Assembly: GCA_029204225.1 (NCBI GenBank)
Contig: CM055097.1
Coordinates: 30,161,785-30,225,784, forward strand
Direction of reading: 5' to 3'
Length of the DNA stretch: 64,000 bases
DNA from: Diphasiastrum complanatum
Taxonomy: Eukaryota > Streptophyta > Lycopodiopsida > Lycopodiales > Lycopodiaceae
Below the pieces are notes generated by a model, which was given only the letters and a program-made list of their open reading frames with translations, was not told where the DNA came from and did no database searches. Position 1 is the stretch's first letter. Each line of letters begins with the position of its first letter. This document shows positions 3,403 to 62,558 of the stretch, in pieces. The position numbers and the translations under genes are program-made.

Positions 3403-3845
3403 TGTTAGGGATCCAACTCCCTTGGGTCCCAAACCCAGACTTGAGACTGGACGATGACTGTGCCTGTAGACTTGACCGGTGACTTGTGAACCTGCATGGT
3501 TGCCACGTGTCATGATCTAGGTGTGCACATGGCTTGGAGTCTCTCTCCTTGGAAGTATACAAGGGGAGGAGGGCTCATTTGCCATCCATTCTATGTACCT
3601 AGGAGAAGGTGGATGGAGAACGTGTGCACAGCTAGGATGTATGCTAGCATGAGGCAGGAGAGGCTGAGAGCCTGGGAGCGGTGGTATGGGACGCCGTCTA
3701 GGATGGAAGTCGGATCCAGCTTGATACGGTCACGGGCCAGGGCCGGAGGGTGGACCCAGATTAGGTCCTACGGCGGGGTGGAACGTGAATCGTTCGTGAA
3801 CGTGAACCGACACCTGGAGGTTTGCAATAAGTAGGGATTGTAACA
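3403..3845 (+). repeat. 5' LTR of gypsy element 1
   Basis: The LTR begins TGTTAGGG and ends GATTGTAACA, and is followed after two bases by a tRNA-Met-type primer site. It aligns along its whole length with the two LTRs of gypsy element 2 (15889-16335 and 18685-19133), sharing blocks such as TTGACTTGACC, TGCATGGTTGCCA, TCATGATCTAGG and CCATTCTATGTACCTAGGAG, with many substitutions. Confidence 0.9.

Positions 3846-8141: not shown

Positions 8142-8212
<71 letters not shown>
8142..8212. repeat. (GA)n microsatellite, about 71 bp
   Basis: Pure GA dinucleotide tract between the truncated 5' end of LINE copy 1 and the 3' end of LINE copy 2. Open frames across it on both strands (Arg-Glu or Ser-Leu repeats) are by-products of the repeat. 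Confidence 0.97.
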
Positions 8213-10159
<1,947 letters not shown>

Positions 10160-12827: not shown

Positions 12828-29404
<16,577 letters not shown>

Positions 29405-38419: not shown

Positions 38420-38990
38420 TTTAGGTTTGGATTTAGGGTTTGGACTTATGTTTAAAATTAGATCTAGGTTTAGGTTTACATCCTAGGTTTAGAGTTTGGT
38501 CGATATCTAAGTTTAAAGTTAGTTTTAGATCTCTAATATGTCTACAAAAAAGGCTTGGGTTTAGAAAAATAGGGTTAGGTTTAGGTTTGGGTTTAAGTTC
38601 AATTATGGATTTAGTGAGGGATTAGAATTAAGTTTAAGTTTAGATTTAGGGTTTATGGATTAGAATTAGGTTTGGGTTTAGGGTTTATGAATTAGAGTTA
38701 TATCTAGGTTTAGGTTAACATTTAGAGTTTATGGATTAGAGCGAGGTTTGGGTTTAGGGTTTGGACTGTTTAAAATTAAGTCTATGTCTAGGTTTAGGTT
38801 TACATCTATAACTAGGCTTAGAGTTTGGTTGATATTTAAGCTTAAGTTTAGTTTTAGATCTATATTTACGTTTAAGTTTAAGACTTGAAGTTGATTTTTA
38901 ATTTGAGTTTGGATTTAGGTCTCTATCTAGGTTTAGTATGTCTACAAAAAAGGTTTGAGTTTAGAGATTAGGGTTGGGTTAAGTTTTGAG
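38420..38990. repeat. Degenerate TTTAGG-type array, right block
   Basis: Continues the left block with TTTAGGTTTGG, TTTAGGGTTTATGGATTAGA and TCTAGGTTTAGG units. A unit with ATGTCTACAAAAAAGRCTTGGGTT recurs at 37838, 38539 and 38938, showing longer-period duplication of about 400-700 bp. Confidence 0.75.
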
Positions 38991-39790
38991 CTTGGGGAGT
39001 CTGCCTAGTTGTGATGCTCTTGGTAGTTCTATACGCCCGTAAAACAGATGGTAACTTTTGTTCCCAATCAAAAGAATGTGTTTCTGTCACTTTATTTAGA
39101 ATTTTGCACAAAATTCCATTTGCTCGCTCAGTAAGTCCATTCGCTTTAGGATTATATGGAGTGGTTTAACGATGTGTAATGGAAAAATATGATAACATAG
39201 CCTCAATGGTTTGGTCAAGGAAATGGGTTCCCCTGTCACTAACGAGTCTAAGGGACATCCATATCATGTGATAATGTTTTGGAATAAAAACTTTGCTATA
39301 GCCTTAGCATTGTTTTTAACTATGGCGTCGGCTTCTACCATTTTGGTAGCATAGTCCGTTGCAACAAGAATGTAATGTCGACGAGTTTTACTAGTGGTTG
39401 GTACGATTGGCCCTACAAAGTCTATTCCCCACTTCTCAAAGGTGCTAAGTAAATAATTGGTGTAAGTTGCCGATGTGTTGGGAAGCTGGGTTTTTCCATC
39501 CTCTGGCATGCATCACATTTTTGAATGAATAATTTAACATCTCTATAGACGGTAGGCCACCAATACTTAGTGTTAAGGATCTTTCTTGCAGAATTTTTAA
39601 GAGCATAGTGGCCCTCCAAATCTTTTTCATGTAATGCACTTAATACTGTGGTCGTCTCGGTGGGTTCTAAACAACCACAAAGATTATCGTCGGCTAGATC
39701 ACTTGAGAAGTTTGTAAATCTTTTTGAGTGGATCCTTTGGTATACATAAGAAGTGAAGATCAGCCAAGGGATCCATCATAGCAGCACCCT
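38991..39790 (-). pseudogene. Gypsy C integrase
   Basis: Minus-strand frames give the integrase zinc finger (EGHYALKNSARKI, KYWWPTVYRDV, IQKCDACQRM; 39619-39460), the first catalytic aspartate in FEKWGIDFVGPI (about 39420), ILVATDYATKMVEA (about 39370), the second aspartate in LVSDRGTHF (about 39230) and the glutamate region NPKANGLTERANGIL (about 39140). They end with LPSVLRAYRTT near 39030. All three catalytic positions are visible but frames are broken. It probably belongs with the protease and RT at 43990-45480, the middle being replaced by copia C. Confidence 0.85.
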
Positions 39791-41430
39791 CACCATATCC
39801 ATGATAAGATCTCTTTGGTAGAGATATCTTGCCAATGCCTTTGAAGAGTGCTCCACCAATATGCCACTAGTATCATGGGCTTCCTCCATGCTTGATGATG
39901 ATCTTTGCCTTGAAAGTTCCACTTGCATGATGGATGCACCATAAATAGAGAAATTTGAGGCTTCCAAGCCTCATAAGGATCATGGAGATCAAGATCATAA
40001 GATGTGAAACAATGATGATTATCAAGATTATGCTTTCTAGCTTGACTAGTCCACATACAATGAACTATATCCATGATGGATCTAATCTTGATATCAAAGA
40101 CTATCTTGATCTTTTTTAGGCTAGTTACTCTCTCAAGGATGTAAGTGTCCACTTTGGATGCTTCACTTAATCTCAAGAGGAGTTTACAATTTGCCTCAAA
40201 ACATGTGAAAACATGATTTTCAAAAAAGTGAGTACCAAGCTCAATCTTGTTCTTACTACAACCAAGAGCATACTTTTGAAAATACAATATCTTGCTTTCA
40301 AAAAGTATTGGAAACACATCTAAGTCAATAATGACAAGAAACATGTCCATACCATAAGCATCATACAAAACTAGTATAGCTTTTCTTGAACTTTGAGATC
40401 CAAAAAATTCAATGAAGCAAGATAGCATTTCAAGCAAAGGAAGAGAAGCATATATGAATGTGTTGTAGTAGATACAACATGAAAGATGCCCCTCTTTGCC
40501 ATGTAAGGTGAGCCATAAAGACTCGGCCATGCATCTTGAAGATCTTCTTGAAATCATATGAAGAAGAAACTCCTCCTCACACATTGGCCCCATCATAACT
40601 TGAATACCTTCAAAAAGGATAACTTGTGATGCTTCTTGAGAAGCCTTGATCTCGGCCACTTCCAAGATTGAATCTTCATGCAATATGACATCTCTATTCA
40701 CGATCACATTTGAAATAGAGAGTGTAAAGACACTAAAGGCCTCCTTGATGGATGAGTATCCAATCATGATCCATGAGCTTGGATAATCCTTCCTTCTTGT
40801 TTCCAAGGGAATATGTGCAAAGCAAGCACTACCAAGTTCACTAAGGTGATCAACCTTAGGCTTCATCTTGAATAAAACTTCATATGGTGCTATTCCTTCA
40901 AGAGCTCCAATACTCCTCAAAGCTTTGATCTTCAATGAGAATTTCTTCTCAACATATGCTTTGAATAATAAGGAATAATCATACACCATAATACTTGAAG
41001 AGAGAAGATATGTGCATCCTGTGTAATCCTCCTCCTTTGAGATATTGGAAATATAAGAAACATCAAGAGAGTTTGCACTCTCACTTGGATCCAATTTGTA
41101 GATGCCTTCAAATCTTGATCCATATGCAAGGATCTCACCATCCTTCTTAATCACACAATTGTCAATATTGAAATTGACATCAAAGCCACTATCAAGAAGT
41201 TGGCCAACACTTAAGATGTTCTTTGTAAGCTTTGGGACAAAAAGAACATTGTTGAGAAAGAGATCTTTAGAAGATGCAAGCTTCAAGGGAATAATCCCTA
41301 CTCCTTCAATATTGCACTCATGCTTACTTGCAAAGTATATGGTCTTCTTGACTCCATCATAAGGCATAATAGATGAAAAAAAGTGCTTGGAGCCACACAT
41401 ATGTGAAGATGCTCCACTATCAATATACAT
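39790..41430 (-). CDS. Copia C pol-derived chimeric ORF, 546 codons
   Basis: This is the longest open frame in the window. Residues 1-110 are a copia protease: the catalytic DSGASSHMCG near residue 4, then NNVLFVPKLTKNILSVGQLLDSGFDV. Residues about 150-260 are an integrase reduced by internal deletion (YSLLFKAYVEKKFSLKIKALRS joined to GIAPYEVLFKMKPKVDHL and WIMIGYSSIKEAF). Residues about 264-546 match nothing I recognise; they are rich in Leu, Ile, Phe and Cys (ILVLYDAYGMDMFLVIIDLD, FEANCKLLLRLSEASKVD). No stop interrupts this part over 850 bp. It could encode a non-autonomous element protein or be a chance open frame over captured DNA. The frame begins in mid-pol, so a start by fusion with gag is likely. 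Confidence 0.6.
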   Translation of the reverse strand: MYIDSGASSHMCGSKHFFSSIMPYDGVKKTIYFASKHECNIEGVGIIPLKLASSKDLFLNNVLFVPKLTKNILSVGQLLDSGFDVNFNIDNCVIKKDGEILAYGSRFEGIYKLDPSESANSLDVSYISNISKEEDYTGCTYLLSSSIMVYDYSLLFKAYVEKKFSLKIKALRSIGALEGIAPYEVLFKMKPKVDHLSELGSACFAHIPLETRRKDYPSSWIMIGYSSIKEAFSVFTLSISNVIVNRDVILHEDSILEVAEIKASQEASQVILFEGIQVMMGPMCEEEFLLHMISRRSSRCMAESLWLTLHGKEGHLSCCIYYNTFIYASLPLLEMLSCFIEFFGSQSSRKAILVLYDAYGMDMFLVIIDLDVFPILFESKILYFQKYALGCSKNKIELGTHFFENHVFTCFEANCKLLLRLSEASKVDTYILERVTSLKKIKIVFDIKIRSIMDIVHCMWTSQARKHNLDNHHCFTSYDLDLHDPYEAWKPQISLFMVHPSCKWNFQGKDHHQAWRKPMILVAYWWSTLQRHWQDISTKEILSWIW

Positions 41431-42360
41431 GAGTCATCCTTGTTGAAGGTGGAAGAGGAGAAGCTTGATGCCATAAGAGAGCCTTCTCCATCACTTGCAA
41501 TATAGTCTTCTTTCTCATTGGTGATGTTGGCTTGATTGAGTTGATTCTTCTTCTTGAAGCAATTGGTGGCATAATGGCCTTTCTTGCCACAATAAAAGCA
41601 CTTGATCATCTTCTTCTTGAGATTTGAATTAGAAGCATGAGAGGTATCCTCCTCCTCTCCATCTTTGTCTTTAGCTTTGTCATTAGAGAAGTGATGGTGT
41701 TGCTTCTTACTCCTCTCTTTGTGCTTGGCAAATAGAACTTTGCCATCATCATGATTGAGTGATAGCTTGTCCATCCTCAATAGTTTGTACTCTTGTCTTG
41801 ATTCTTCAGAAATAAGCACACTTTGAAGGGCCTCCAAACTTGGTAGCTCCTCCTTAATAGCATAGGATTGGACAAGGTTGTCATATTCATCTCTCAAGCC
41901 ATTGAGAATGACTTGGACTAGCTCACTTTGATTGATTGAGTCACCAATACATGCAAGCTCCCTATGAATATCCTTGACTCTCAAAACATAATTAGATGCA
42001 CTCTCATCACTCTTTTGACTACTTTGGAATATTTGATTTCTAAGAGTGAGGAGCCTAGAGGTGTTCAGCCTCATAGATGGACTTGAGACAATCCCAAGCT
42101 TCCTTGGATGTAGAACAATCACCAATCTCCCTCAATATCTCATTAGAGACATTCATCTTAATGTAGTGGAGAGCCATCCTAGCTCTCTTCTTGTATTTTT
42201 GTACTTCTTGAAGGACTTGAGGCTCCTCCTCAATCCCAAGTACAATGTCCATCACATCTTGGAGTATCAAGATGGACTCCATCCTCAACTTCCATATTGA
42301 ATAATTGGAAGTAGACAATCTCTCACTTGGTTGCAACAAGTACGAACTCATTGAAGTCAT
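41431..42360 (-). pseudogene. gag: Copia C gag with zinc knuckle, one frameshift
   Basis: The start is MTSMSSYLLQPSERLSTSNY at 42360. The copia gag (UBN2-type) core follows: YSIWKLRMESILIL, ARMALHYIKMNVSNEIL, then after a frame change near 42090 RLLTLRNQIFQ, VLRVKDIHRELACIG and LVQVILNGLRDEYDNLV. The knuckle is CFYCGKKGHYATNC (about 41600-41560). Gag packages the RNA. Another frame change near 41430 separates it from the protease. Confidence 0.85.
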
Positions 42361-52460: not shown

Positions 52461-54043
52461 TTGTATTCAGAAAAATTTTGTTTCTTCAGTGATAGTGGAG
52501 GAGAATACACTTTCAATAAGTTTAAAGACTTTTGTGAGAGAGAGGGCATTCAAAGAGAGTTTTCTTGTTCATATACTCCTCAACAAAATGGAGTTGTTGA
52601 GGGAAAAAATAGAACTTTGTGTGAATGTGCAAAAGCCATTAGGCTAGAAGTTTCTCTGCCTAAAGAATTTTGGGGAGAGGTAGTTGCATGTGCAAACTAT
52701 CTTTGTAATAGGCTTCCAAATCTTGAAATAGGAGGAAAAACACCATTTGAGATGTTGTATAAGAAAAAGCCTAAGGTAGATCATCTTAGGATTTTTGGCT
52801 GTGTATGCTTTGTGCATGTGCCTCTAAAAACTAGGAAGAAGGAAGGTCCTAGTGCAATTAAAGGAATCTTTGTAGGATATGCATCCACTAAAAAATCATA
52901 CAAAGTATATCTTCCTTCTACTGACAAGAATATTGTTAGTAGAGATATGATCTTCCATGAAGATCAGAAGTTTAACTTGGATGATGCATAGATCAAGGAG
53001 TCTCATGCAAGATCAATCATCAATCTTGATGCTGCTCAAGAGGTGGTGAGGCCGAGGCTCGAGGAGGAGCAAATTCAAGCTACCACACCAAGAAGATCTA
53101 CATGAGCAAGATGTGAGCCAAGGAGGCTCACATATGATGAAGAGGGAAGGCAAGTGGAAGGTGAAACTTCGTATCATGCTCTCTTCATGTCAGATAAAGA
53201 GCCTAAAGATGTCCAAGAAGCTCTTCAATTCAAAATGTGGGTTGAAACAATGACCCAAGAGTTTGAAGCCTTGATGTCAAACAACACATGGGAGCTTGTG
53301 GAGCCACCAAACAACATGCATGTGATTGGATGTAAGTGGGTTTTTAGAATCAAGTATAATCATGATTCAATAAGTACAAAGCAAGACTTTGTGCCAAAGG
53401 CTACTCACAAATCAAAGGTCTTGACTATGAAGACACCTTTGCACCAGTTGCAAAGATGGTAACAATCTGAATACTTATATCTCTTGCATGTTTTCACAAT
53501 TGGAGTATATTCCAGCTTGATGTTTCTAATGCATTTCTCAATGACTACCTTGAGGAGGAGATTTACATGGAGCAACCTCCAGGTTTTGTGAAAGAAGGTG
53601 ATGAATCAAAAGTTTGTCTTTTGTTCAAAAGTCTCTATGGACTGAAAAAGCACCAAGGTCTTGGTATGCAAGGCTCAACTCCTATCTCATATCACTCGGA
53701 TTTTGTCTAAGTGAATATGAATCTTCTCTGTATTATAAGTTTGTAGATAACTTTGTAATTATTCTTCTCATCTATGTAGATGATATCATTCTTTGTGGAA
53801 ATAATGAGAAGTTAGTTGAAGAAACTAAGCATGCACTTGGTAGTGAGTTTAAGATGCAGGACTTAGGAGTTCTTCACTATATACTTGGCCTTGAAAATAG
53901 ATTTTTGAAAAGGTCATGCATTTATAAGCCAAAGTAGATATGCACTTTCCATGCTCAAGAAATTCCAGATGGAAAATTGTAAAGGCATAGATACACCTAT
54001 GGAGCACACTGTAAAAATTCCTATTAAAGATGATGAAAAATCC
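52461..54043 (+). pseudogene. Copia copy E1: integrase end and RT
   Basis: The plus strand begins in the integrase core (SDSGGEYTFNKFKDFCEREG at about 52490), then YTPQQNGVVEGKNRTLCECA with the catalytic glutamate, FWGEVVACANYLCNRL, VDHLRIFGCVCF and the IFVGYAST block. The RT starts near 53230 (TQEFEALMSNNTWELVEPPN, GCKWVFRIKYN). It continues with SLWTEKAPRSWYARLNSYL and IILLIYVDDIILCGN (catalytic YVDD, about 53780), and stops inside RT at the word KDDEKS. At 54044 it is joined to the last 65 bp of its own LTR. Frameshifts and stops lie near 52989, 53102 and 53470. Closely similar to copy E2. Confidence 0.87.
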
Positions 54044-54108
54044 TCACAACACCTCAGTAAGATCCTGTAGGGTGTGTGGTGAAGTTCACACGTGCTAAAA
54101 ACTTCACA
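54044..54108 (+). repeat. LTR terminal remnant of copia E1
   Basis: From CACAACACCTCAGTAAG to AAAACTTCACA, nearly identical to 62494-62558, the end of the LTR of copy E2. It shows that a deletion joined RT sequence to the LTR end. Confidence 0.8.
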
Positions 54109-54540
54109 AAAGCGTACCTTAAAGTGTTCAACAATATTGGTGTTATCAAAGGGCAAGCCACACCCTTCGGAGTTGTAGAGCTTGTTTTTGTTGACTTTTC
54201 GACCGGAAGTAGCCATGAATGGCATAGAGGATATGATTCTAGAATGGAAATTTATGGTTAGATACTCTTTGTGAATCTGCATTTGTTGTCGCTGAAAATA
54301 ATACTATAGATAGTGGATTCTTTGTGCTCCATGGCATACCCCACACTGTCAAGGTTGATGAGCAAGCAAAAGTATGGGTATGGAGTTATGCGAGAGATCT
54401 ATAGTTCACAATGCCACTCCACTTGGTTGGACATCTTCGGATCCACATCATGAAGTAATGTCATGTATGTGATGTAGAATAGATAAGAATCTAAGTGGTT
54501 TAAAATTATTTTTCTCTCGCATAACTTAACTTAAGCCTAT
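54109..54540 (+). other. Coding-like segment upstream of the transposase-like gene
   Basis: Plus-strand frames here (54076-54261, and 54260-54420 in another frame with the stretch ESAFVVAENN, then GFFVLHGIPHTVKVDEQAK) look like real protein rather than noise, but no domain is recognised. They may be an upstream exon of the next gene or the end of another decayed gene. Copia E1 ends at 54108, so this DNA is the target flank of that element. Confidence 0.35.
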
Positions 54541-56175
54541 TTGAATTATTGTACACACTTATTTCTCATTTTTTATAGGGTAAGATTAACAAAAAATTAT
54601 TATAATGACGAATTGTTCAAAGTAGTTGGCCAACCACTTCATATAACTAAATTATACAAATCAGAATATGGTGAGCTCAATTACAGCGATTGCAATAATA
54701 TTTTCCTTGATATTGAAAGTGTTCTAAAATACATTATTCGATTCTATAAACTAGACGAACATCAAGTAAATAGAAAGATCATTACTGTAATAAAATTGGA
54801 TGAATCTGAAATCATCAAGGGTCAAAAGTTGGAACGAGTGAGTGTCACTTTGATGAACAAAATTTCAGATACAGATGATCGAACGTTTAGTGTTCAATCG
54901 GAAAATCACATATGGTGGTTGGCAGCATTCCTTCAAATTTCATTTAGAATATCGTTATTAACATTTCATACCTTGCCAGTTTTTATTGACATGTCATGCA
55001 TTACTTGCTTCCCTGCAGGTCTTGAAAGAGGACCATAAAATATTTTCATGGATATTTTCAAGAACAAATTATGGCGAGATTATAAAGAGACATTTGGAGG
55101 GTGAAAAATTTACAGTCGAAAACTCATGGAAGTTTTCAAATTCAATGGCACCTTGCAGCAGATTTGAAAATATTTAAGTGTATGTATAATGTCTCTCATG
55201 GGGCAACATCAAAGCATCCATGTCTTTATTGCATGAAGGACTGCTACAATATGAATTTGGAATGATCAAACATTGGCCCAAGACGAGAAGTTGGAGATCC
55301 AAATATGAAAAGTGTTCTGCCAATTCCATTAAAAAATGTTCACATATGCACATTGCATGTTGAGGTTTGTATTATTGAAAAACTTATTTATCTGCATATT
55401 CTACTAGATCATAAACCGGAGTCTGTGGCTAAAGCAGCAATTAGGAGGTTGGAAATAGTTCTGTTAAATGCAAGACTACATAAAGAGAATGTCACGATTG
55501 AAAAAAGTGACAGACTCTCCGGAAAAAAGGAAACGCTCCTAATAAGCCATCAATTGGAGGTGCTAAAGCAAGAAGATTCTTATCCAATCACACGTGCAAA
55601 GAATCAAATGTCAAATACGAAATTTGGAGAGAAATTGTTCAAGCCACACGAACACTGGAAGGAAGTAATCGAGTGGAAAATACTTCGAGTGGAAAAGGTT
55701 CAAGTGTGGCCAACTTAGACAAACTCATAGGTGTTATCAGGAAAGAAAATCTATCATAAAAAAATATGAGGACTTTGCAAAATCATTGCACCACATTTGT
55801 AAAATCTGTACATGATTGTTGGGGAAAAGACTTCGTTAATCATTACATGGTGCTAATCTATATCATTATTTGGTACTTATCTCATTTAGGCTTATATATT
55901 TTTCTACTGATGTAACTAATCAAAACTCTTGTTTGCAGCACATCCTTCTTCATCATGCAACTTATTTTGCAAAGGAATATGGGAGCTTAAGTATCTGGTC
56001 ATCACAAGGCATGGAAAGATCTCATTGGCAAGCAAGGGGAGCATTTCATAGAGCTACAAATTACGGAGGACACAATTCAAGAAATAAATATTTAGTTCAA
56101 CTTTTTCAGTGGTTTTACAGAAGAGCACAATTTAGATATCAAGCTAAAAACTCGCCAAATGTTACGATTTTTTGA
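54541..56175 (+). pseudogene. DDE-transposase-like gene, spliced, decayed
   Basis: Exons are inferred from acceptors TTTTTATAG (54579), CCCTGCAG (55019) and TTTGCAG (55938). The first (54580 to about 54930) has ITVIKLDESEIIKG, with a candidate first catalytic Asp at 54799-54801, then LERVSVTLMNK. The second (55020-55717) has YGEIIKRHLEGEKFTVENSW and, after a one-step frame change, WHLAADLKIFKCMY with a candidate second Asp at 55161-55163, followed by SHGATSKHPCLYC (CX2C). The third (55939-56175) has LSIWSSQGMERSHWQARGAFH with a candidate Glu at 56014-56016, then RATNYGGHNSRNKYL. This D, D-CX2C, E order fits a DDE transposase; similar proteins are, from memory, common in invertebrate and fungal genomes. 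Frame changes and a short intact length suggest it is inactive. Confidence 0.62.
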
Positions 56176-56327
56176 AAGGCATTCAAATTCATAACAAAAG
56201 AGAGATCCTTGTAATATATCAAAAATCTATTACAGAAAATCGTTTAATTATCATCATCATTCTCTTCAAGATTTATACGGATGGTATTGTCATGAAGGAA
56301 TAATCTCCTTTCATATGGATCCAAAAA

Positions 56328-57796
56328 TTATAAATTTTTTCTTTTGCTCGTATCAATGTAACCCGAATAACGGGCCATTGCAGATGATCTTTTGTTAGTC
56401 ACATTGGGAGTATAACCCAATATTTCAATTGCCAAATCCATTTTCACAAAAATTATTTTATATGTTCCTCTTGCGTACTTATGGCCTCCTAAACAAATTG
56501 ATAATGATTTGATGGCCATAATGACAATGATTTCATATGGATTAAAAGATGAATGATATATACAAATCTCATTATTTTGAAAGTTTTTCAAATAATGAGA
56601 TAGAGACACATCCTTTCTCCCGGCTGATACACCTTGGACGCCTCCATGTCTCATACCAAAGGCATCTATTTCAATAGCATCCTGTAAACGAATAAAGAAA
56701 ATAAATTTAGAATGATACATAACACTACAAACTCATACTTTAACAAAATGTTTGAAATAAGAAAACTGAACAATATCAATACCAATATAATATCTACGTA
56801 CCAGATTATAATCATCGTATTCAACGACATTTGCTCTACTAATGTCATGTCCCCCAATGGCCTCTACATTTTCGGAGGAGATATACCGAGTCCTTGGGAG
56901 ATATATTTTTTGGAATTCCAAAAATTACTCCTCTATAGGCAAAGTTTTTTCATAGGCTTTAGATTTTTCAATCATGGCATCCAAGGCGTCATTGCCAGAT
57001 TTTCAATTGTCATCTTTATCATAATCTATTTCACTTTCAAGGTCATTATATGTGTAATCAACAATGTCATAAAATTCTGATAAATTTTGTGCAAAAATTG
57101 AGAGGATTTCATCCTCTCTCAAATTCAAAACATCTTCTATATCATTAAATAAAATATAACTCTCATTATTTGTAAAATATACGGGAATATCGAGTAGAGT
57201 TAATTGATTAACAAGAGATGCAGATGGATGAGAATTAGAGAGGATTATAGAACGAGGGAGAATTTTTTGATAATCTGAAGCCATAGATGCTTCAACTTCA
57301 ACCCCTATATCAGTATCTGCATGATCTACATCAATTGGAGCAGATGTAGATGCTTCAATCATTGGAATAGTAGAAGATTCAACAGACTTATCATCTGAAA
57401 TATCATCAGATATGTAAAAGACAAAAGCCATTCCTTTTATTAGAAGGTGACATATTCTTTTGTGGATACCACAATATATATTTATTTTGAAATGGCCATG
57501 TAGGTTAGAGTATTTTCTATTGTGTTTATGCTTAAAGGATGGTTGGGAATGCACATTCTGAAAATGAACGAAACAAAAACTATCTATATCCTGAACATGA
57601 ATACTAATAATCTGAGAAAAATTATCAAGAAGAAAAATTAAATTATAACGATTCTCATAAACTAGCTTATTGATATCGAAGGGAGCAAAAAAATATTGGA
57701 AAAGTACTCTAATTTCTCAAATGGAATGTCACTGGCATTCAAAAAATCCAAAAGTTTGTTATATGAGGACATGGAGGAACTAGCCATATTGAACAT
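56328..57796 (-). pseudogene. Unknown ORF pair, tail-to-tail with the transposase-like gene
   Basis: The minus strand starts at ATG 57796 (MFNMASSSMSSYNKLLDFLN, ASDIPFEKLEYF). After a frame change near 57690 it runs through DNFSQIISIHVQDIDSF and a 183-codon frame (57554-57003) with HLLIKGMAFVFYISDDISDD, an acidic middle and VYFTNNESYILFNDIEDVLN. A final part (56720-56328) has AFGMRHGGVQGVSAGRKDVS, ICIYHSSFNPYEIIVIMAIK, GGHKYARGTYKIIFVKMD and ARYSGYIDTSKRKNL before a stop. I recognise no family. Its 3' end faces that of the transposase-like gene, 150 bp away, the arrangement seen in some two-gene DNA transposons. Confidence 0.5.
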
Positions 57797-57955
57797 GATA
57801 TCGGTTCAACACGACTGAATGATTTCAGTGGAGGACTGAACAACAGTGTGTGCGTTGATTCGATATCATTTTGACGATACTAAAATTGTCGTGCTCGACC
57901 TGACTTCTGATCTAGAGTTCTCCTTGTGTGCGCACTGATCCGATATTGGATAGTA
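57797..57955. promoter_or_regulatory. 159-bp divergent spacer between the unknown ORF and the H3-like gene
   Basis: The two start codons point away from each other across 159 bp. The spacer contains repeated words around GATATCG and CGATATTGGATAG (57798-57806, 57862-57870, 57940-57950). A shared promoter is inferred from position only; no TATA box is clear. Confidence 0.35.
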
Positions 57956-58376
57956 ATGGCGCAGACTAAGCAAACAACACAAATCCACCCTGGTGGAATC
58001 CCAATCATAGGAGGAGGTCAGGGAAATCCACCACCACTGCCTCGTCTACCACCTCCTCCTAGGCCAAGGGGCAAACAAAGAGACCCCCTGGCTGAAGGAT
58101 ATTCGAAAACTACAAAAGACCAATAATCTTTTGATTTCGAAAGCTCATATACAGAAATTTATCAAACATGTTACAAGAAGTCTATCTGTAGATGTGAGAT
58201 GGACTGTAACGGCAATTGAGATGCTGCACACTGCACATGGGGATTTCCAAGCGAAATTTTTTTCAAATAGTGTTGTTGTAGCTATCCATGCCGAGAGGGT
58301 GACCATCATGCCCAAGGATTTAAACATTGTGTTCAGGCTAAGAGATACATATGACAAATTTGCAGAGTACTTTTGA
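57956..58376 (+). pseudogene. Divergent full-length histone H3-like gene, one frameshift
   Basis: The start MAQTKQT at 57956 copies the H3 tail start (T3, K4 and T6 kept; R2 changed), followed by GG at the position of G12-G13. A Pro-rich stretch without lysines (58028-58070) replaces the rest of the tail. After a one-base frame change in a C5 run (58084-58088) the other frame reads KDIRKLQKTNNLLISK (alpha-N, like the H3 REIRKYQKSTELLIRK segment). Loop 1 is of canonical length (SLSVDVRWT), helix 2 follows, and then VAIHAERVTIMPKD, with the H3 loop-2 AIHA-RVTIMPKD nearly intact, and a short tail to TGA 58376. About 30 of 84 core positions equal H3 by eye, ungapped. Length allowing for the frameshift is 139 residues (H3 is 135-136). 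It is intronless. A centromeric H3 is less likely because loop 1 is not longer. Confidence 0.78.
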
Positions 58377-58446
58377 CCAGCTCCTTCCTCTCCTTTAAAA
58401 CAAGATGTAGAGAAAAGAAAGCGAAAGCAATCCCAACCATCTCGGC

Positions 58447-61400
58447 TTGTTTTTTGAGTACAGAGCGGAGATCAAGTGTTTTTTCTGTGGAAAGAAAGGA
58501 CATTATGCATCAAACTATTTCAAGAAGAAGAACCAATCTGAGGAAGCTAACCTTACTAATGAGGATGAGTGTGAGGGTGTAGAGAGTGAAAGAGAGGATT
58601 CATTAATGATGTCTACTTTTTCATCTTTTCCTTCTAAACATGAAGAAGTCTGGTGGATAGATAGTGGGGCTAGTTCTCACATGTCTAGTTCTAGGAACTC
58701 TCTCACTAATCTCATGCCATATTTAGGTGCAAAAAGGTCAATCTATACTGCTAATGATGTAGAGTGTAGGATTGAAGGAATAGGTAGTATTCCATTACAT
58801 GCATCATCATCAAAACCTTTTTGCTTACATGATGTACTGTATGTACCTAAATTGACTAAGAACCTCATTAGTGTAGGACAGTTGTTTGATAGCGGATTGG
58901 ATGTCAAGTTTCAATTGACAAGTGTATAATCTCAAGAGAAAATGAAGTTATTGCTAGAGGATCTAGAATTGGTAAGTTATACAAACTAGATTCTAGGGAG
59001 AGTGCTAACATTTCAGATATTGCTTATGAGACCAAGATTCTACATGAGGATCTGTGGCATAAGAGATTGGGTAATCCCAATTTCAAAGCCATGCAATCTA
59101 TGGTCAAAGAAGGAAAAGCTGTTGGTCTACCAAAGACACTGTCAAAGGAGCTTCTACCTTGTGAAGCTTGTGCGCTGGCATAGTCACACAGAAGGCCTTT
59201 TCCTAGATCAAGTATCAAGACAAGGCAACCGTTTGAACTTGTACACTCAGATGTTCATTTCTCATCAACTAAGGGCAAAGGAGGAGCCAACTGCTTTGTC
59301 TCTTTTGTAGATGATTATACAAGACATTCTTGGATCTATATGCTGTCTTCAAAAGCCATGGCTTATGATGTTTTTCTTACTTTTAAAGCTTATGTAGAGA
59401 AGCAGTTTCCTTTCAAGATAAAAGCTTCAAGAAGTGATAGTGGAGAAGAATACACTTCCAATAAGTTTAAAGACTTTTGTGAGAGAGAGGGTATTCAAAG
59501 AGACTTTTCTTGTTCATATACTCCTTAGCAAAATGGAGTCGCTGAGAGAAAAAATAGAACTTTGTGTGAATGTGCAAAAGCCATTAGGCTGAAAGCTTCT
59601 CTGCCTAAAGAATTTTGGGGAGAGGCAGTTGCATGTGCAAACTATCTTTGTAATAGGCTTCCAAATCTTGTAATAGGAGGAAAGACACCATTTGAGATGT
59701 TCTAAGGTAGACCATCTTAGGATTTCTGGCTGTGTATGCTTTGTGCATGTACCTATAGAAACTAGGAAGAAGGAAGATCCTAGTGCAGTGAAAGGAATTT
59801 TTGTAGGTTATGCATATACAAAAAAATCATACAAGATTTATGTGCCCTCTACTGACAAATAAGTTGTTAGTAGAGATGTGGTCTTCCATGAAGATCAAAA
59901 ATTTAACTTGGATGATGTTCAGATCAAAGAGACTCATGCAAGATCAATCATCAACCTTGATGTTGTTCAAGAAGAGGTGAGGCCGAGGCTTGAGGAGGAG
60001 CAGATTCAAGCTATCACACCAAGAAGATCTACACGAGCAAGATCTGAGCTAGGGAGGCTCACATATGATGATGAAGGAAGGCAAGTGGAAGGTGAAACTT
60101 CCTATCATGCACTTTTTATATCAGATGAAGAGCCTAAGGATGTCCAAGAAGCTTTTCAATCCAAGTAGTGGGTTGAAGCAATGACCCAAGAATTTGAAGC
60201 CTTGATGTCAAATAACACATGGGAGCTTGTGGAGCCACCAAACAATGCATGTGATCAGATGTAAGTGGGTATTCAGAATCAAGTATAATCATGATGGATC
60301 TATCAATAAGTATAAAGCAAGACTTTGTGCTAAAGGCTACTCTTAGATTAAAGGTCTTAATTATGAAGATACCTTTGCACCAGTTGCAAAGATGGTAACA
60401 ATTCAAATACTCATCTCTCTTGCATGTTTTCACAAATGGAGTATGTTCCAGTTTGATGTTTCTAATGCATTTCTCAATGGTTATCTTGAGGAGGAGATTT
60501 ATATGGAGCAACCTCCAGGTTTTGTGAAGGAAGGTGATGAATGAAAAGTTTGTCTTTTGTTCAAAAGTCTGTATGGACTGAAACATGCACCAAGGTCTTG
60601 GTATGCAACGCTCAATTCTTATCTCATATCACTCGGATTTTGTCTAAGTGAATATGACCCTTCTCTGTATTATAAGTTTTTAGATAAATTTGTAATTATT
60701 CTTCTCATCTATGTAGATGATATCATTCTTTGTGGAAATAGTGAGAAGTTAGTTGAAGAAACTAAGCATGCACTTGGTACTGAGTTTAAAATGCAGGACT
60801 TAGGAGTTCTTCACTATATTCTTGGCCTTGAAATAAATTTTTGGAAAGTTCATGCATTTATAAGCCAAAGTAGATATGCACTTTCCATGCTCAGGAAATA
60901 TCATATGGAGAACTGTAAAGGCATAGATACACCTATGGAGCACACTATAAAAGTTCCTATTAAAGATGATGAAAAATCCTTTGAGGACATCACTCTTTAT
61001 AAGAGTCTTATTGGCTCACTTATTTGGTTAACAATGACTAGGCCTGATCTAAGCTTTTGTGTTCATAAGCTGAGTCAACACATGCAGGATTCAAAGTTAT
61101 ATCATTGAAAGTTGGCTAAAAGAGTCTTGAGGTATATATCTTCTACCTTGGATTATGGACTATACTATGAAGGAGAAGATTTGACCTTGATTGCTTTTTC
61201 AGATTCAGATTTTGCAGGAAACAGGTTGGATAGAAAATCTACAAGTGCTTACACTATATTTCTTGGAGGAAATTTGGTTTCTTGGCTGTCAAAGAAGCAT
61301 ACAAGTATTTCCTTATCATCCTGTGAAGCTGAATACAAATCTCTTACAACCACAACAAATGAGGTTTTATGGATCAAAAGGCTACTTTTGGAGCTTAAGT

Positions 61401-61664
61401 GTTATGCAGATGAAGATTTACCAATTATCAAGAATGATAACATTTCTGCTCAGGCTCTTGCAAATAATCCAACCTTTCATGCAAGGAGCAAGTGGCTCAT
61501 CATTTTGTAAGAGAAAAAGTCATTGGAGGAGAGATCTCATTCGAGCATGTTTCATCTTTAGATTGTGCTGCAGATCATCTCGCCAAGCCTCTACTCATGA
61601 ATTCCTTATGAAGATGAGGTCTAACCTTGGCCTAATTTTGAAATCTATGTTGATAGGAACATAA
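58447..61664 (+). pseudogene. Copia E2 gag end and pol, broken
   Basis: The order is a knuckle CFFCGKKGHYASNY (last Cys changed to Tyr, so zinc binding is weakened), protease WWIDSGASSHMSS (about 58650) with DVLYVPKLTKNLISVGQLFDSG, GAG-pre-integrase (59030-59180) and integrase (SDSGEEYTSNKFKDFCEREG, about 59435; a stop replaces a Gln near 59527). RT follows (60180-60980, with LYGLKHAPRSWYATLNSYL and IILLIYVDDIILCGN), then SLIGSLIWLTMTRPDLSFCV. RNase H is 61112-61510 (LIAFSDSDFAGNRLDRKSTS, SLSSCEAEYKSL). Stops lie near 59528, 59703, 60167, 60342, 60543 and 61108. Confidence 0.9.
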
Positions 61665-61668
61665 ATTT

Positions 61669-61678
61669 TAAGGAGGAG
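61669..61678 (+). other. Polypurine tract of copia E2
   Basis: A TTTTAAGGAGGAG context directly before the LTR start TGTGAAG. Confidence 0.75.

Positions 61679-62558
<880 letters not shown>

Follow-up and report, generated by a model that had tools for sequence, protein, structure and literature searches.

Histone H3 is among the slowest-evolving proteins. Divergent forms have been described in plants, among them the male-gamete H3s of Lilium (gH3, gcH3 and leH3), and a nomenclature paper holds that cenH3s are not clearly separable from such divergent male-gamete H3s (PMC3380720). PMC4359364 gives as criteria for CENH3 an extended loop 1 and the absence of the H3 glutamine at 68/69 and of the H3 phenylalanine at 84/85. 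Absence of an H3 threonine is a further criterion, although the papers disagree on where it lies (position 118 in PMC4359364, 108 in PMC7598501). Outside plants, PMC6710886 reports histone H3 captured by hAT elements in Dothideomycete fungi.

Here we describe a locus of Diphasiastrum complanatum at 57956–58376 of a 64-kb stretch of DNA (the whole stretch analysed, hereafter the window). That an H3-family gene is present there from start through stop is well supported. At slightly better than an even chance, we take it to be a single, decayed copy, stranded among transposons, of a fast-evolving gene of the histone H3 family; its loss of function and its lineage are what we infer. In the literature searched, no title or abstract opening describes a plant H3 of this kind. 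Coordinates of the features are collected in Table 1.

An H3-type histone fold with a strongly diverged core

The frame at 58011–58376 stays open for 121 codons before a TGA and encodes an H3-type histone fold. PF00125 aligns with 58011–58373 over profile positions 33–122 of 122, well above its cut-off of 26.4 bits, so that the core histone profile covers the entire fold; the shorter stretch 58089–58373 still matches with an E-value of 4.8e-17. The same stretch matches H3-type chains of the PDB (best E 6.6e-14, with 179 distinct chains matching at an E-value of 1 or below). Among the window's stop-to-stop frames of at least 25 codons, an H3 profile returned a single match, which is the histone locus, and it returned none in the reversed window. 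The H3-like gene claimed in the initial annotation is therefore upheld by the PF00125, PDB and H3-profile matches alike, and the similarity spans the whole core, well beyond the VTIMPKD word to which that annotation had feared it might be confined. The sequence AIHAERVTIMPKD was likewise borne out on reading the locus. A single-sequence AlphaFold2 fold check gave a pLDDT of 47.9 and was unusable.

Table 1. Features at and around the histone locus, in window coordinates
Feature	Position	Strand	Basis
H3-type start MAQTKQT	57956..57976	+	Frame 2 reading; MA.TKQT count
Open stretch from the ATG (proposed proline-rich tail), stop at 58124-58126	57956..58126	+	Frame reading
Hypothetical GT...AG intron, 70 nt, phase-compatible, weak	57993..58062	+	By eye
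Open frame with histone fold	58011..58376	+	Frame listing; PF00125 E 1e-17, 64.9 bits
H3 core, 84 residues, gap-free to H3 48-131	58092..58343	+	31 identical, 51 identical or similar
Two nested inverted pairs	57538..58441	.	57538-57552 with 58427-58441, 15 nt, 93%; 57700-57710 with 58364-58374, 11 nt, perfect
Open frame, 237 codons, directed away from the histone start	57003..57716	-	No Pfam or NCBIfam match
Ty1/copia next downstream of the histone, truncated at its 5' end immediately ahead of the gag zinc knuckle	58470..62558	+	Homology to the copia at 41607-41514; Pol_BBD E 2e-23; RVT_2 E 9.8e-27
Probable 3' LTR of the downstream copia (TGTGAAG...CTTCACA)	61679..62558	+	Ends by eye; end matches 54044-54111 at 97%
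Second truncated copia, same family, upstream	52488..54111	+	Direct repeats D4-D7, D11, D19, D20; SH3_retrovirus E 9.2e-28

The core contains no stop and no indel, and it has diverged far from the near-identity that a canonical H3 would show: 31 of 84 residues are identical, close to the one third first estimated, and 51 are identical or similar. Identities are spread unevenly over the segments, being 6/9 in alpha-N, 2/15 in alpha-1, 2/7 in the loop-1 segment, 8/30 in alpha-2, 4/5 in loop 2 and 6/12 in alpha-C, and the word RVTIMPKD is kept. Loop 1 has the length of that in H3 (offset 0), as had been proposed, whereas each of 34 hand-picked plant CENH3s has an offset of +1 (27 sequences) or +2 (7). 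The net charge of the core is +8, against +6 in H3.

At the positions that we take to contact DNA, the core keeps R52, K53, K56, K64, R83, R116, T118, K122 and R131, replaces R49, R69 and R72 by lysine, and has lost three residues through R63S, K115E and R128F. The positions that we presume to form the H3-H3' bundle are identical to H3 in 6 of 9 cases against 25 of 75 elsewhere (p 0.058), which is suggestive of an interface better conserved than the rest of the core, the difference not being significant.

Start, tail and the break in frame

The start MAQTKQT, canonical counterpart MARTKQT, is present in frame 2 at 57956, as had been claimed. Across all six frames of the window there is one instance of the pattern MA.TKQT, where 30 mononucleotide shuffles average 0.0; for the looser M..TK[QH] the count is again one, against a shuffle mean of 0.33. 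From the ATG to the first core leucine there are 136 nt, against 144 nt in canonical H3, and the two lie in different frames. Since the core frame is already open at 58011 and the ATG frame continues until its stop, the frame could change at any point in the roughly 115 nt of 58011–58126. The initial annotation had called just one frameshift, of one base, and placed it at the C5 run 58084–58088; the run is there, but neither the site nor the number of lesions is established, and more than one indel, or a short intron, fits the data as well.

The candidate intron (Table 1, by eye) is predicted to join the start frame to the core frame exactly and without a lesion. If it is real, or if the break is an assembly error, the gene may be a living one. 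A fast-evolving H3 variant still in use, for example a gamete-specific one, whose frame is intact through a short intron or a base-calling error, would agree with the open core and its conservative changes, with the pyrimidine-rich 3' end of the 70-nt GT...AG stretch, and with the divergent generative-cell H3s of Lilium (PMC3380720). We consider it unlikely all the same. The candidate intron lies in a GC-rich stretch (GC 0.549 in 57956–58088 versus 0.375 in the core) and, if spliced out, would reduce the part ahead of the core to only 22 codons, while the distance from ATG to core already suits a full H3 tail without any intron; the site is also dense in transposons. Nor is there a close relative in a direct protein search or among the best 120 of 7998 profile matches. 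The former, which needs shared five-residue words and can miss distant kin, gave three candidates and none at E 0.001 or better. The latter, in which 7998 proteins were scored against a profile of the query and four CENH3s, returned as its best 120 mostly plant CENH3s and some H3s, at 31–43% identity to the query. Less probable again would be a new class of H3, evolving extremely fast and still used, perhaps in gametes, in which the length and contacts of H3 go together with residues of CENH3 type, W84 among them. If true, such a class would be a living intermediate, an H3 drifting toward a centromere-like core without lengthening its loop 1.

The tail was assessed by frameshift-tolerant alignment to H3, followed by the same scoring of shuffled tails. 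The alignment favours at least two shifts and places much of the tail in another frame, rich in K, S and T and containing a stop. Shuffles scored as high as the tail in 60, 90 and 113 of 150 cases at penalties of -6, -10 and -15, respectively, and random segments of the window did so in 6, 13 and 14 of 150; we attribute the gap between the two controls to the GC-rich composition of the tail stretch. Composition aside, the shuffle test thus leaves no significant H3-tail signal after MAQTKQT in any frame arrangement. The tail first described, proline-rich, keeping K4 and losing K9 and K14, does not survive this test as a fact, since it reads one of three frames, the alignment favours others, and even at the mildest penalty 60 of 150 shuffles equal the real stretch in score. 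The K/S/T-rich tail in frame 1, attractive at first, was rejected on the same grounds. Because shuffled tails score equally, neither version can be claimed. Canonical H3 carries a lysine-bearing tail in frame with its core; here MAQTKQT is present, the remainder is unrecognisable in any frame, and start and core are out of frame. A perfect 11-bp inverted repeat (58008–58018 and 58051–58061, TAGGAGGAGGT and ACCTCCTCCTA), its arms 32 nt apart, lies inside the supposed tail.

Probable past constraint on the core, and its descent

Neutral decay was simulated by letting canonical H3 codons drift without selection to 31/84 identities, under simple mutation rates and with canonical H3 as the assumed ancestor. 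Simulated cores carried on average 3.2–3.8 stops, against none observed. The probability of finding no stop was 0.011–0.029 in one script and 0.030–0.058 in a second; absence of stops alone is therefore not very rare (P up to 0.058), which weighs against the relic reading. The joint probability of no stop and no indel was lower, at 0.002–0.005 with 0.02 indels per substitution and 5e-5 to 1.3e-4 with 0.05. The changes are also conservative: the observed BLOSUM sum of 156 compares with simulated means of about 107 and was attained in 2 of 6000 runs of the second script, the maxima of the first being 158, 158 and 155 in three sets of 2000. As neutral decay rarely gives a core that is free of stops and indels and conservative at once, most of the divergence probably arose at a time when the core still made protein. 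Past constraint on the core is well supported, insofar as simple mutation models and canonical H3 as the ancestor are granted.

These results also bear on neutral decay of a simple canonical-H3 retrocopy, an account that would suit a core without an intron at a transposon-rich site with reverse transcriptases. We rate it extremely improbable, as stops and indels are too few, and the changes too conservative, for such divergence. Of the marks of a retrocopy, no poly(A) run was seen by eye in the 93 nt before the copia homology, and there is no flanking direct repeat that could be a target-site duplication, the sole 12-nt one recurring within the gene itself; from an old copy both marks could have disappeared. 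The options listed at the outset (gametic variant, domesticated or element-borne histone, decayed retrocopy) were a sensible set, from which the clean core disfavours the plain neutral retrocopy. A viral origin, also raised then, is without support and was rejected: 22 pattern matches in viral contigs included no relative by tblastn.

In the relic that we favour, the core would have been translated for most of its history, because it changed heavily yet stayed open and conservative. Its product would pair with H4, and with a second H3 via the usual four-helix bundle, while its DNA contacts, at the same presumed positions, would have been partly loosened (R63S, K115E, R128F) and partly retained (R52, K64, R83, R116, T118, K122). 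Function would then have been lost, start and core now being out of frame.

Whether such a relic descends from a CENH3 gene and not from H3 is a matter of ancestry that overlaps the other readings, and descent from CENH3 seems to us quite unlikely. The core shares 35 identical residues with Arabidopsis CENH3, in an alignment with a two-residue gap, 31 with H3 and 30 with human CENP-A, and among the matches listed several CENH3s, for example those of Oryza, reach 42–43% identity over about 80% of the query; by gapped alignment score, nonetheless, H3 comes first with 156, followed by Arabidopsis CENH3 with 145 and human CENP-A with 136. A CENH3 profile scores the query at 70.5 bits and an H3 profile at 66.4, whereas the controls H3.Y and human CENP-A both favour the H3 profile. 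Across the 16 columns that separate H3 from the 34 plant CENH3s, the query is H3-type at four (K64, Q68, P121, R131), agrees with the CENH3 majority at four (A65, T75, W84, D98) and with neither at eight; tryptophan at position 84 is found in all 34 plant CENH3s, while the TKQT of the start, like the unextended loop 1, is of H3 type. At 50 changed sites, with four loop columns left out, eight CENH3-majority matches compare with 2.0 expected (p 0.0005), under a BLOSUM null that ignores site-specific tolerance.

The H3 phylogeny proposed earlier was built, but its two versions conflict. One sets the query beside an H3 (98/85) on an end branch of 7.8 changes per column, in a tree where the end branch of human CENP-A is 1.28; in the other, whose bootstrap had not settled, it falls on the CENH3 side at 100/100 and its end branch measures 9.1. 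Long-branch artefacts are expected at such lengths, exclusion of the query from the CENH3 clade is not rejected (p-AU 0.359), and placement by tree was dropped.

Published criteria for CENH3 also split. Loop 1 is unextended and Q68 is kept, whereas Phe 84 has been lost to W84; of the threonine sites, T107 is S and T118 is T, and the position that counts differs between papers. Because of this split we would, from the residues read, file the query neither as CENH3 nor as canonical H3, and its lineage may have split from a replication-type H3 or from a CENH3-like gene.

Transposon surroundings and comparison with known systems

Copia elements were found on both sides of the gene, in agreement with the transposon surroundings noted initially. 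The histone stop is followed after 93 nt by the first detectable homology to the downstream copia, and a search with the 3' LTR region found no 5' LTR partner for this element in the window. On the upstream side, the roughly 3.6 kb of 54112–57716 carry frames on both strands (for example 54535–55038 and 55266–55718 on the plus strand and 57003–57716 on the minus strand). None of these frames matched a family above cut-off, BLYB and DUF6201 being sub-threshold only, and the region is possibly an unclassified element. Searches of Rfam (57000–59000), for tRNAs and for bacterial-type promoters gave nothing useful. The gene sits among mobile elements, which stops short of showing that it belongs to one.

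Several further observations concern the wider window. A further copia lies at 39790–42131 on the minus strand; it has gag and zinc knuckle and is a distant relative of the element beside the histone. (GA)n and (CT)n runs of more than 100 nt occur at 9287–9416 and 62139–62305, the second inside the probable 3' LTR, with more GA runs near 8150 and 12700. Three repeats towards the left of the window (15903–16202, 18698–18997 and 3419–3521) are related and 81–88% alike. A degenerate TTTAGGG-like stretch is seen at 38622–38762, which together with the abundance of copia elements would point to a plant host.

With mobile elements flanking the gene on both sides, a histone H3 captured and multiplied by such an element, for which the hAT elements of Dothideomycetes are a precedent (PMC6710886), has to be weighed, and we judge it very unlikely. 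Two nested short inverted pairs surround the gene (Table 1). Of 200 block-shuffled sets of flanks, one contained an 11-nt perfect pair and none a 15-nt pair with a single mismatch, while equal pairs of the same geometry were met at 6 (11 nt) and 4 (15 nt) of 400 random places, and the best local inverted match around the gene was equalled at 6 of 600; in all of these the flanks were picked after the pairs had been seen. The pairs, equalled at about 1% of random places, are a hint of an element-borne histone and raise our estimate of it slightly, at the cost of the relic, but they are short and chosen post hoc, and by eye no direct repeat stands beside the outer arms. The right arm of the inner pair (58364–58374) falls within the end of the coding frame. 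With a 3-nt gap allowed, that pair stretches to about 25 nt and links the last part of the histone frame with sequence a little past the point where the neighbouring minus-strand frame begins. Against capture, the 64-kb window holds no second copy, detectable copia homology begins only after the gene, at 58470, and the nearby unassigned reading frames have no transposase match. The Dothideomycete case resembles ours in having an H3-like sequence among mobile elements, and differs, according to PMC6710886, in being multicopy, within hAT and inactivated by RIP in several species; no second copy or hAT domain was found in our window.

That a copy with 37% core identity has kept its fold illustrates the extent of change open to H3 under constraint. 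Intact relatives, should there be any, would provide a test case for the features that set H3 and CENH3 apart. Should the copy be no more than a relic, its interest is that of a curiosity, and of a caution that a histone tail should not be read from a single frame. The male-gamete H3s of Lilium resemble it as divergent plant H3s, a likeness drawn from their published description (PMC3380720). Canonical H3 (H3.1/H3.3) shares with the query the fold, the loop-1 length, RVTIMPKD, Q68, P121, the TKQT start and the distance from start to core. It differs from the query in core sequence, in W84, K115E, R63S and R128F and in the query's longer C-terminus, as well as in the query's unrecognisable tail and broken frame. 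Compared with CENH3, the query has no loop-1 extension, keeps Q68, and is without P63 (found in 33 of 34 plant CENH3s) and G131 (34 of 34). With CENH3/CENP-A it shares A65, T75, W84 and D98, a CENP-A-like WLK.IRKLQK helix and its 35 identities with the Arabidopsis protein.
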